A stretch of DNA of 64,000 nucleotides from Pseudoxanthomonas broegbernensis (GTDB lineage Bacteria; Pseudomonadota; Gammaproteobacteria; Xanthomonadales; Xanthomonadaceae), in contig NZ_JACHGU010000003.1 in the NCBI RefSeq assembly GCF_014202435.1, forward strand, positions 186,001 through 250,000, in the 5' to 3' direction. Every line of letters starts with the position of its first letter. Position 1 is the first letter of the stretch. The translations under genes were made by a program, and so were the position numbers. This document shows positions 45,310-52,121 of this stretch, one piece after another. The notes under the pieces were generated by a model that was given only the letters and a program-made list of their open reading frames with translations, ran no database searches and was not told the origin of the DNA.

Positions 45310-45670
45310 GCGCCGACAACGTGCCGCGGCCTGGCGCCGCCCGCCCATTGGACGCGATCCATGCCCGGCAGAGGAAGCCCTGGCGAAAGCACCGGAAAAT
45401 CCGGGCGCGATCTCCTGGATGCCCGGTGACGGTCCGGTCCAGCAGGGCGATGCCTTCAAAGCTGGCTTCGGGCGAGCCGCACCGTCACGGAAAACGCCAG
45501 CTTCGGAAGGGCCCGCCGTCCCGAGGGGGCAGCGCCATCCCCCGACCGCCGCGGCTCCCGCCGAGGCCCACGACAAACGGCGCTCTTGCCATTGCCGTTG
45601 GACGTTACCGTCGAGCCTCCCGCCGCCTCACTGCGAAGTCGCGCCGGAGAGATGCCTCGCGGCGCTCAGC
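45310..45670. other. 361-bp intergenic region upstream of pbpC
   Basis: No gene is supported. It contains GCTTCGGAAGGG-type repeat sequence at 45500-45522, which recurs in inverse orientation at 52122-52144, and a GGGGG...CCCCC hairpin (about 45524-45545) right after it. The region separates the acyl-CoA dehydrogenase from pbpC on the same strand. Confidence 0.45.
45500..45522. repeat. Copy 1 of a dispersed intergenic repeat
   Basis: The 23-base segment starting GCTTCGGAAGGG matches the reverse complement of 52122-52144 at 21 of 23 positions by direct comparison. Both lie in non-coding gaps and next to GC-rich hairpins. Confidence 0.55.
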
Positions 45671-46819
<1,149 letters not shown>

Positions 46820-46886
46820 GGGGAACCCCTCCGTTCCGGTCGATGGTCCCGATTGTAACCGCCCCACCATTCGCATGCGTATGTGG

Positions 46887-46933
46887 TTGACCCGCCCTGC
46901 CCGCGGCGAGACAATCATCTCTATATCGCGATA
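46887..46933 (+). promoter_or_regulatory. Promoter and operator of the ArsR-methyltransferase/metH operon
   Basis: TTGACC (46887-46892) and GACAAT (46910-46915), 17 bp apart, form a good sigma-70 promoter. Directly behind it, over the expected start point, is the perfect palindrome TATCGCGATA (46924-46933); a second palindrome AGATATCT (46937-46944) abuts the ATG and overlaps the ribosome binding site AGGAAG. This is the place for an autoregulatory ArsR operator, by inference. Confidence 0.6.
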
Positions 46934-46944
46934 GGAAGATATCT

Positions 46945-47874
46945 ATGGACCTGGAAGACTGGTCGGTCCGGTTGAAGGTCTTCGCCGACGCCACCCGCGT
47001 GCGCTTGCTGGCGCTGCTGGAGCTGGAGGAACTGACCGTGGCCGAGCTGTCCTCGGTCACCCGCCTGGCCCAGCCGCGCGTGTCCACCCACCTGGCCAAG
47101 CTGAAGGAGGCCGGGCTGGTGCGCGACCGCCGCGCCGGCGTGTCGGCCTACTACCGCTTCGACGAGGACGCGCTGGACCCGGCCCAGCGCATCCTCTGGC
47201 AGACCCTGAGCACCGGCAGCGACGATCCGCTGCTGCGCCAGGACGCCGAGCGCCTGCCGGGCGTGCTGGCCGCGCGCGCCGCCGGCCAGAACTGGGCCGA
47301 CAGCGTGGCCGGGGACATGGAGCGCCACTATTCCCCCGGCCGCACCTGGGAGGCGCTGGCGCGCAGCGCGCTGCCGCTGCTGGAGACCGGCGACGTGCTC
47401 GACATCGCCTCCGGCGACGGCGTGCTGGCCGAGCTGCTGGCCCCGCACTCGCATCGCTACGTCTGCATCGACACCAGCGCGCGCGTGGTCGCCGCCGCCG
47501 CCGAGCGCCTGCGCCGGCTGCGCAACGTGGAAGTGCGCGAGGGCGACATGCACGCCCTGCCTTTCGAGGACGGCAGCTTCGACCTGGTGGTGCTGATGCA
47601 CGCCCTGACCTACTCGACGCTGCCGGCGCAGGCCGTGGCCGAGGCCGCGCGCGTGCTGCGCCGTGGCGGCCGCCTGCTGCTGACCAGCCTGGCCCGGCAC
47701 GAGCATCGCGCGGTGGTGGAGACCTACGGCCACGTCAACCTCGGCTTCGCCGCCAAGGAGCTGCGCCGCTTCGTGGAGAAGGCCGGGCTGGAGACCGCCA
47801 GCCTGGAGAGCGTCACCCGCGAGCGCCGCCCGCCGCACTTCGAGGTGCTTTCTTTGATCGGGAACAAGCCATGA
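46945..47874 (+). CDS. ArsR-family regulator fused to a SAM-dependent methyltransferase domain
   Basis: A 309-residue two-domain protein. Residues 1-90 form a winged helix of the ArsR type ([47 protein letters not shown]). From about residue 110 comes a class I methyltransferase fold with motif [37 protein letters not shown] and [12 protein letters not shown]. No cysteine metal site of arsenic sensors is seen. The stop overlaps the metH-N ATG (ATGA). Known ArsR regulators such as SahR sense S-adenosylhomocysteine and control the SAM cycle; this protein may use its methyltransferase fold as the SAM/SAH sensor, by inference. Confidence 0.92.
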
Positions 47875-49046
47875 CCGCAAGTGCGAACCCCGCGCAGGAA
47901 CCTGCGCCCCCCGGCGCCGGATTCGCGCGCACGCTGCCCTGGCTGCACCCGCGGCGCGTGGCCTTGCTGGAGGCGTCCCTGCGCGAGCGCATCCTCATCA
48001 TCGACGGGGCCATGGGCACGATGATCCAGCAGCACGCCCTGGAAGAGGCCGACTACCGCGGCGAACGCTTCGCCGCCGGCTACGATTCCGCGCACCGATC
48101 CGCTGCGCAGGACCCGGCCCACGCGCACGGCCCGGGCTGCGACCACGCGCCGCAGGGCCACGATCTCAAGGGCAACAACGACCTGCTGCTGCTGACCCGG
48201 CCCGAGCTGATCGCCGGCATCCACCGCGCCTACCTGGAGGCCGGCGCCGACCTGGTGGAGACCAACACCTTCAACGCCACCTCCGCCAGCCAGGCCGACT
48301 ACCACCTCGAACACCTGGTGTACGAGTTGAACAAGGCCGGCGCCCACGTCGCGCGCCAGGTGTGCGACGAGATCGAGGCCGCCACCCCGCAGCAGCCCCG
48401 CTTCGTGATCGGCGTGCTCGGCCCGACCAGCCGCACCGCGTCGATCAGCCCCGACGTCAACGACCCGGGCTTCCGCAACACCAGCTTCGACGAGCTGCGC
48501 ACCACGTACGCACAGGCGGTGGAAGGCCTGATCGACGGCGGCGCCGACGCCCTCATGGTCGAGACCATCTTCGACACCCTCAACGCCAAGGCCGCCCTCT
48601 ACGCCATCGAGGAAGTGTTCGACGCGCGCGGCGGGCGGCTGCCGGTGATGATCTCCGGCACCATCACCGACGCTTCCGGCCGCACCCTGTCCGGGCAGAC
48701 CGCCGAGGCCTTCCACACCTCGCTGGCCCACGCGCGGCCGCTGTCGATCGGCCTGAACTGCGCGCTCGGCGCGCAGGAGCTGCGCCCGCACGTGGAGGCG
48801 CTTGCCGGGACATCGCCGTACTACGTCAGCGCCCATCCCAACGCAGGCCTGCCCAACGCCTTCGGCGGCTACGACCAGACCCCCGAGGAGATGGCCGGGA
48901 TGCTGGAGGAATTCGCCCGCTCCGGCCTGCTCAACCTGGTCGGCGGCTGCTGCGGCACCACGCCGGACCACATCCGCGCCATCGCCGAGGCCGTGCGTGG
49001 ATTGCCGCCACGGGTACCGCCGGCGGCACTGGAGCAGGCGGCATGA
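47871..49046 (+). CDS. metH: Methionine synthase, homocysteine-binding half
   Basis: A 391-residue protein equal to the N-terminal Hcy-binding barrel of cobalamin-dependent methionine synthase. It begins the conserved part with [13 protein letters not shown] and has the zinc cysteines in GLNCALG and [14 protein letters not shown]. The remaining domains are encoded by the next gene, 93 bp downstream in the same frame, behind a single TGA. I recall split MetH in xanthomonads, so this is likely functional. It carries an insertion rich in His and Gly ([14 protein letters not shown]) absent from E. coli MetH. Coupled by ATGA to the regulator gene. Confidence 0.94.
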
Positions 49047-49084
49047 GCGCTCCCGCCACCCTCCCATTCCCCGTGGCCGTCGTT

Positions 49085-49118
49085 CCCGCCTGCGCGGGTC
49101 CGGCGGCCTTCCGGCCGC
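49085..49118. repeat. Two hairpins between the metH halves (REP-like)
   Basis: CCCGC-CTGC-GCGGG (49085-49098) and GCGGCC-TTCC-GGCCGC (49103-49118) are perfect stems in the 93-bp gap between the two metH genes. The preceding CCGTCGTTCCCGC resembles REP-like elements at 12902 and 51907. No T-run follows, so they are unlikely to be efficient terminators. Confidence 0.55.
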
Positions 49119-49139
49119 GCAACCGCTGATACGAAGACC

Positions 49140-51830
<2,691 letters not shown>

Positions 51831-51905
51831 GCCGGACTGCCTGGCCGGGCGCTTGTCCGGTCGGGCACGCAGGGGGCTGTACACCGCCGCGACGGGGGGG
51901 CGATA

Positions 51906-51940
51906 CCGTCATCCCCGCGAAGCCAGGGATCCAGCGACTT
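51906..51940. repeat. REP-like intergenic element
   Basis: CCGTCATCCCCGCGAAG followed by AGGGATCCAGCGACTTC is a degenerate copy of the CGTCATTCCCGCG...GGGAATCCAG form that I associate with xanthomonad intergenic repeats. Imperfect stem CCCCGCG/CAGGGAT. Similar starts occur at 12902 and 49076. Confidence 0.5.
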
Positions 51941-52121
51941 CATTCGCCAACACCCGTCCGGGGTCGCCGGCCCGTCGGCTTCAGTGTCGACGGGGTGCCG
52001 TTTGCCTTTCACCCACCGAAGCCCGCGATCCCCATGCCGCGAAGGCCGTCGTGTCCTGGGCATGTGCCGCGGCCCCGAGTAAAGGCAGGATGCCGTCCCG
52101 AGGGGTGCGCCCCATGCCCAG

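Follow-up and report, generated by a model that had tools for sequence, protein, structure and literature searches.

The window, that is, the whole stretch of 64,000 nucleotides that was analysed, carries a gene for an ArsR-type regulator, samR, followed on the same strand by metH1 and metH2 (Table 1). Pfam and NCBIfam show one methionine synthase divided over the latter two genes, with the head encoded by metH1 and the remainder by metH2. An ArsR HTH joined to a methyltransferase-type domain had been read from the sequence alone, and Pfam agreed by assigning PF01022 (ArsR HTH) and PF08241 (SAM-type methyltransferase) to the samR product. The genome encodes a single full-length copy of this protein; two further matches are partial and lie over the methyltransferase domain. 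All 149 family genomes gave some SamR match and 147 gave a strong one, the two with only weak matches (G114 and G142) being assemblies that are 85% and 71% complete.

We compared 81 loci, made up of the window and the best 80 relatives listed, which are hence closer relatives. The metH1 gene was found downstream of samR in 79 of them, the other two being a truncated locus and one that could not be resolved. The proposed translational coupling of samR to metH through an ATGA overlap is present in the window and is conserved only in part, since, of the 79 loci with a placeable metH1 start, 36 have ATGA and 6 have GTGA (L063, which is short, and L094, in which metH1 was not found, are left out of this count). 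In L094 (X. vasicola NCPPB 2417) the samR frame is open to 705 aa and metH1 is missing from its usual place, reflecting a frame change or an assembly error. The samR-metH arrangement also occurs on contig JAHREJ010000038.1 (L095), labelled Bacillus subtilis SK7B5, with a SamR 85% identical to that of the window; this assembly is mislabelled or contaminated. On the opposite strand of the window, a divergent gene judged from its translation to be acyl-CoA dehydrogenase-like occupies 45671-46819. Its open reading frame as listed reaches 46918, inside the samR promoter, and the GTG at 46819 is the more likely start.

Table 1. Features of the samR-metH1-metH2 locus, in positions of the window.
Feature	Position	Strand	Basis and remarks
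-35 element TTGACC, samR-metH1-metH2 promoter	46887..46892	+	consensus scan; TTGAC in 80/81 loci
-10 element GACAAT	46910..46915	+	consensus scan, predicted
24-bp operator ATCTCTATATCGCGATAGGAAGAT, ATC-N5-ATC-N2-GAT-N5-GAT	46917..46940	+	exact in 81/81 loci
Palindrome TATCGCGATA of the sequence-only reading	46924..46933	+	inner operator part; 63/81 loci
Likely ribosome binding site AGGAAG	46933..46938	+	within operator; inferred from position
Palindrome AGATATCT of the sequence-only reading	46937..46944	+	only AGAT inside the operator's outer right part; 1/81 loci
samR	46945..47874	+	309 aa; ArsR HTH aa 15-60 and class I methyltransferase-type domain aa 152-245
ATGA overlap, samR stop / metH1 start	47871..47874	+	sequence; ATGA or GTGA in 42/79 loci
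metH1, homocysteine-binding head of methionine synthase	47871..49046	+	PF02574, E 1.2e-95; NCBIfam metH model positions 2-325
metH2, pterin, B12 and activation domains of methionine synthase	49140..51830	+	PF00809, PF02607, PF02310, PF02965; NCBIfam metH model positions 323-1182

The promoter TTGACC-17-GACAAT claimed in the sequence-only reading was borne out. No other sigma-70-like site was found in 46300-48300 (shuffled sequences gave a mean of 0.2), and where TTGAC is conserved upstream of samR the distance from the end of the hexamer to the operator is 23-25 nt in 79 loci and 28 nt in the remaining one. The operator is an imperfect palindrome that starts just 3' of the -10 box and takes in the likely ribosome binding site, and it may alternatively be read as two ATC-N10-GAT sites with an offset of 8 bp. 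In place of this element, the sequence-only reading had described two separate palindromes. Both of their sequences are present and TATCGCGATA lies inside the conserved unit, as does the core ATCGCGAT, which is kept in 77 of the 81 loci; AGATATCT, by contrast, was absent from every locus other than the window and is not a conserved element. The exact 24-bp unit was recovered within 400 bp upstream of samR in every one of the 81 loci, where the reversed pattern had 3-6 mismatches at best. We rejected the two-palindrome reading because of these counts. As far as the aligned loci tell, the conserved unit is a single 24-bp predicted operator containing fragments of both palindromes, so that the suggested comparison with relatives upheld the operator as a whole and spoke against a separate AGATATCT element.

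The operator ends 4 bp 5' of the samR start codon in 63 of the 81 loci and lies 107-196 bp upstream of samR in five Lysobacter loci. A further 29 samR loci with fetched flanks, in part from the same species as the 81, all carried it exactly. Upstream of samR in four more distant family members (G003, G009, G018 and G055) it was found with one mismatch, compared to five in each reversed control. Among distant SamR-like genes from other families, one had the exact operator (G204) and one had it with a single mismatch (G278), and no operator was found upstream of the SamR-like genes of G336 and G191 (5 and 6 mismatches). Five other-family loci that were left out of the counts (L174, L179, L180, L184 and L188) had no ATC-N10-GAT site. 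Operator counts among kin genomes are not independent events, yet the flanks diverge strongly while the triplets stay constant.

The pattern was then evaluated at the scale of whole genomes. Sixty family genomes yielded 85 exact matches, with at least one in 58 of the 60, and the reversed control yielded none; four of the 60 have the one-mismatch form at samR in place of an exact site. Of 25 spacing variants searched, 5/2/5 stood out with 107 matches in 1.05 Mb of loci against 0 or 1 for each other spacing, although 27 of these 107 loci had been retrieved with the pattern itself. Among the 85 exact matches, 75 were listed, 48 beside samR and 27 elsewhere. These 27 comprise metX-metB-hom (6), ahcY (3), metK (3), metE (3), the intergenic region between cysG-like and LysR-type genes (3), a second hom (1), PIN-domain (VapC-like) genes (4) and other or in-gene places (4); hence 19 of the 27 listed adjoin met, SAM-cycle or sulfur genes. 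Target representatives tested with Pfam were the metX (alpha/beta hydrolase), metB (PF01053) and hom (PF00742) of the window's own genome and, in relatives, the siroheme synthase (PF00590, PF10414) and LysR of L288, the LysR of L289, MetE of L285 (PF01717), the homoserine dehydrogenase of L296 and the PIN domains of L282 and L292. The remaining names come from tblastn with own proteins or from reading of translations, and 'cysB' beyond LysR type is our own reading. Partial genes and loci at contig ends were excluded from the locus counts (L266, L270-L274 and the second row of G024), as were L187, which lies at a contig end, and the metK fragment of L202.

The PIN-domain genes stand beside sites fitting the 24-bp pattern at L282 3332, L283 3111, L284 1067 and L292 2979. 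Three of the four sites hold their own GCATCATGATGC-type palindrome, and they probably belong to another protein, as an antitoxin's own operator. Since these loci and the four other or in-gene places also match, a pattern match alone is not proof of SamR control. Looser searches were less useful: an earlier 36-bp weight matrix tied to the samR promoter scored metF and no other met gene, a 20-bp matrix gave weak scores only at metK and ahcY, where inspection by eye gave the four-triplet pattern, and a scan of the own genome with ATATC-N10-GATAT at 2 mismatches was too noisy (104 matches compared to 36 in the control).

Besides samR-metH, the exact operator occurs in the window's own genome at metX-metB-hom (L275 658-681). 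A tighter half-operator pattern with up to three mismatches found only two matches in this genome, metF (no mismatches) and samR, with none in the control. The own metF departs from the full 24-bp pattern at three positions. Across 15 metF loci we counted one mismatch in 5, two in 1, three in 6 (own included) and four in 3, compared to 4-6 in the reversed control, and it is often the outer operator part distal to the gene that is lost. The own metK has a one-mismatch operator between a -10-like element and the start codon; 13 metK loci had one mismatch in ten, two in two and four in one (reversed control 3-6). In 15 of 15 loci taken as Xanthomonas, an operator with one mismatch lies over the -35 of metX. 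The sequence-only reading had proposed a feedback loop on metH, and a SAM- or SAH-sensing metH autoregulator is still the best supported form of it, but the scope looks wider, with an exact site at metX-metB-hom and variants at metF and metK in the own genome and a metE site in three relatives.

Two further targets emerged among the relatives. Within 400 bp upstream of ahcY, 12 of 31 loci carried the operator with at most one mismatch; all others had at least 4 mismatches, as did the reversed control in all 31. The 12 loci represent 5 of 23 genera, namely the window's genus, with 8 of its 9 loci, and four others with one locus each, and a further genus (G046) has the exact operator at ahcY. 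At most of these sites the final GAT extends into the -10 box (GATATAAT or similar). The ninth locus of the window's genus is its own, in which the operator is absent from the ahcY promoter; here (contig C1, L185 2990-3116) the SAH riboswitch before ahcY is retained and the operator lost. In L286 and L290 metK and ahcY are neighbours, and co-transcription of ahcY behind metK is possible there. Three genera (L288 3156-3179, L289 3272-3295 and L297 2779-2802) also have exact operators in the space that separates a cysG-type (siroheme synthase) gene from a divergent gene of LysR type (cysB-like), a possible tie of SAM metabolism to sulfate assimilation.

At three targets the operator is joined to a riboswitch, each for a different ligand. 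Upstream of metX-metB-hom it lies over the -35 (GATTGACA) and is followed by a SAM-I riboswitch (RF00162) in all 8 loci scanned, one in the own genome, four in relatives and three in Xanthomonas (L279 was left out). The own riboswitch, at C13:33713-33830 (L275 714-831), is directly 3' of the operator and precedes metX-metB-hom. A SAH riboswitch (RF01057) follows the operator at ahcY in 12 of 12 loci, nine above the gathering score of 37 and the rest at 34.0-36.5 bits. All three metE loci scanned, from three genera (L285 3461-3484, L287 3177-3200 and L298 2907-2930), have the operator inside the match to the cobalamin riboswitch (RF00174). Since riboswitches are present at these met genes and the samR element sits 3' of the predicted start point and 5' of the start codon, its symmetric DNA might be considered an RNA leader element, a riboswitch or a hairpin over the ribosome binding site, and not a protein operator. 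We set aside a riboswitch at samR because Rfam gave no match at gathering level in 45500-52000. The 24-bp element is also found at the metX -35 and just 5' of the ahcY -10, where it would not be transcribed, and this makes the RNA-leader reading very improbable.

The placement of the element instead fits a protein operator at which repression is the probable mode of action, as judged from its overlap with promoter or initiation elements at the targets: between the -10 and the start codon at samR, in the same interval at metK, touching the -10 at ahcY and over the -35 at metX. We propose that a dimer of the samR product would bind the 24-bp operator via its HTH domains and, when bound, block initiation at its own operon as well as, in this genome, at metX-metB-hom, metF and metK. 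The methyltransferase-type domain would act as the sensor of an S-adenosyl compound rather than as a dedicated enzyme, and SAH, or a low SAM:SAH ratio, would release the protein. That SamR is a repressor with an S-adenosyl ligand is in our judgement very likely. The operator, as one 24-bp element with no reversed matches in 60 genomes, is sharp enough for the design of binding and reporter tests.

The protein itself was analyzed across the 81 loci. One 17-residue stretch and one 10-residue stretch are invariant, and D153, G157, G159, D176 and D201, the acidic and glycine residues of the SAM site by alignment, are invariant in 16 SamR and SahR-like proteins. An AlphaFold2 model (mean pLDDT 86, pTM 0.65) places a winged helix ahead of a class I methyltransferase fold, and its best PDB matches by Foldseek are SAM/SAH-binding methyltransferases, for example Rv2258c-SAH (5f8e). 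Full-length matches to SAM- or SAH-bound methyltransferases have a low TM of 0.4-0.5 and single domains match better, and the model therefore does not settle the relative placement of the two domains. The only invariant cysteine is C174, which is the single cysteine of the window's SamR; none of the 81 proteins has a cysteine before residue 174, and none has more than 3 in the first 309 residues.

The cysteine content bears on two other readings of the protein. ArsR/SmtB metalloregulators have metal-binding cysteines in the HTH domain, though some members make no use of cysteine. The best NCBIfam match of SamR is HTH_metalloreg, a generic metalloregulator subfamily, which might suggest a metal-sensing regulator that adjoins metH by chance. 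We set this reading aside on the lack of any HTH-region cysteine in the 81 proteins and give it almost no credence, as the operator is also common to methionine genes across the family. Alternatively, SamR might be a regulator and an enzyme at once. Its domain would then methylate a substrate in the reported manner of ArsRM, which likewise fuses ArsR to a methyltransferase and comes from the same type of operon (PMC10190100). The retained acidic and glycine residues of the SAM site would suit such an enzyme; against it, SamR has no cysteine before residue 174 where the ArsRM account places C134 in its arsenite site, and we saw no sign of an acceptor site and no support for the enzyme action on the metH substrates that the sequence-only reading had offered as an option. 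A bifunctional SamR is accordingly quite improbable, and an arsenite methyltransferase was set aside on the cysteine content of the 81 proteins.

Sensing of an S-adenosyl compound being the preferred reading, we considered which compound it might be. Within this reading our opinion leans slightly to SAH, which we hold to have an even chance, with SAM a plausible but less expected effector and a ratio or another compound unlikely. The argument for SAH is the operator at ahcY, which recurs in several genera and weakens the published argument for SAM; it rests on relatives, because the own ahcY promoter has lost the operator. Against SAH, a regulon of hom-metX-metB, metE and cysG resembles control by the end product, SAM. 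Leyn et al. (PMC4239095) favour SAM as the effector on the grounds that, in their account, the regulon holds no SAM-cycle gene but metK. SamR would then be a SAM-dependent co-repressor and a functional analogue of MetJ, binding at high SAM and turning methionine synthesis off, a possibility that we regard as real but somewhat doubtful. The supply of methionine is indeed what metX-metB-hom, metK, metE and cysG have in common. Apart from the ahcY sites, this reading has to contend with the X. campestris met promoter, for which Zhang et al. (2018; PMC6230763) describe similar activity with and without methionine from constructs that reach 109 or 52 bp back from the start point. If the longer construct holds the full operator, as would be expected from the Xanthomonas loci, these methionine-insensitive reporters show no repression by methionine through SamR and count for SAH and against a simple SAM co-repressor; they are plasmid-borne and from another genus, and X. 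campestris is perhaps not among our 15 Xanthomonas loci. The met operon, moreover, already has a SAM-I riboswitch, although the same redundancy applies to SAH at ahcY. We dropped the idea that the 5'UTR effect of Zhang et al. is SamR action: the leader is a SAM-I riboswitch (PMC7270179) and the 5'UTR reporters were under the lac promoter (PMC6230763).

Taken together, we tentatively propose, at somewhat less than an even chance, that SamR is a SAH-relieved repressor forming a DNA-level layer above metabolite riboswitches, with target membership (ahcY, metE and cysG) won and lost between genera. If this is true, transcription would track SAH or the methylation state while each RNA senses its own ligand. 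The pairing of operator and riboswitch on one transcript at three targets would make these bacteria a good case for the division of DNA-level and RNA-level sensing in one pathway.

Among known systems, MetJ, the SAM co-repressor of E. coli and its relatives, controls a comparable set of genes and represses by promoter overlap, as we infer for SamR. The two belong to different protein families. Their operators also differ, that of MetJ consisting of tandem AGACGTCT boxes (PMC4239095).

SahR, an ArsR-type regulator reported to respond to SAH, occurs in Desulfovibrio, in alpha-proteobacteria and in some gamma-proteobacteria (Novichkov et al., cited in PMC4239095). It acts on metH, metF, ahcY and metK with a palindrome of the ATC-10-GAT type, targets that SamR would share, in the case of ahcY in some relatives. 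We found SahR-like proteins beside metF and metH1-metH2 in other gamma families. The identity between SamR and SahR is given as about 30% by Leyn et al. (PMC4239095), and the window's protein was 33% and 35% identical to the two SahR-like proteins aligned. Motif I is ASGDG in SamR, where four SahR-like proteins from other gamma families have GTGTG or GCGQG; these four also lack the 17-residue stretch, and upstream of their genes the 24-bp pattern was not found, with 3 mismatches at best. ArsRM of Brevundimonas sp. M20 (PMC10190100), for which arsenite methylation and binding to its own promoter are reported, resembles SamR as a fusion heading a met operon, being the first gene of metRFHH, and differs in the cysteine noted above, C134, a comparison based on the lack of any SamR cysteine before residue 174.

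The closest precedent is SamR itself, which Leyn et al. (2014; PMC4239095) predicted for Xanthomonadales from 4 genomes as an ArsR HTH-methyltransferase protein distantly related to SahR, with the effector left unresolved; it is also listed in PMC5343134. The autoregulator proposed in the sequence-only reading was thus already in print as a prediction. In the literature searched, we found no binding, expression or ligand experiment on any SamR and no later answer to the effector question posed in 2014. The protein described here has the same two domains, the same place before metH1-metH2 and, upstream, the 24-bp palindrome with ATC-N10-GAT that Leyn et al. assign to SamR, and the published met regulon likewise includes metF, metK, metB, metX2, hom and metE. 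We conclude with high confidence that the samR product is SamR and acts through this operator. The published absence of SAM-cycle genes other than metK is not what we observed, given the operator at ahcY in the family and in G046. Compared to the account of Leyn et al. as drawn on here (PMC4239095), what is new is the operator at ahcY with its SAH riboswitch, at metX-metB-hom with SAM-I, at metE with the cobalamin riboswitch and at the cysG/LysR-type promoter, in some relatives, together with the resolution of the operator into four ATC/GAT triplets.
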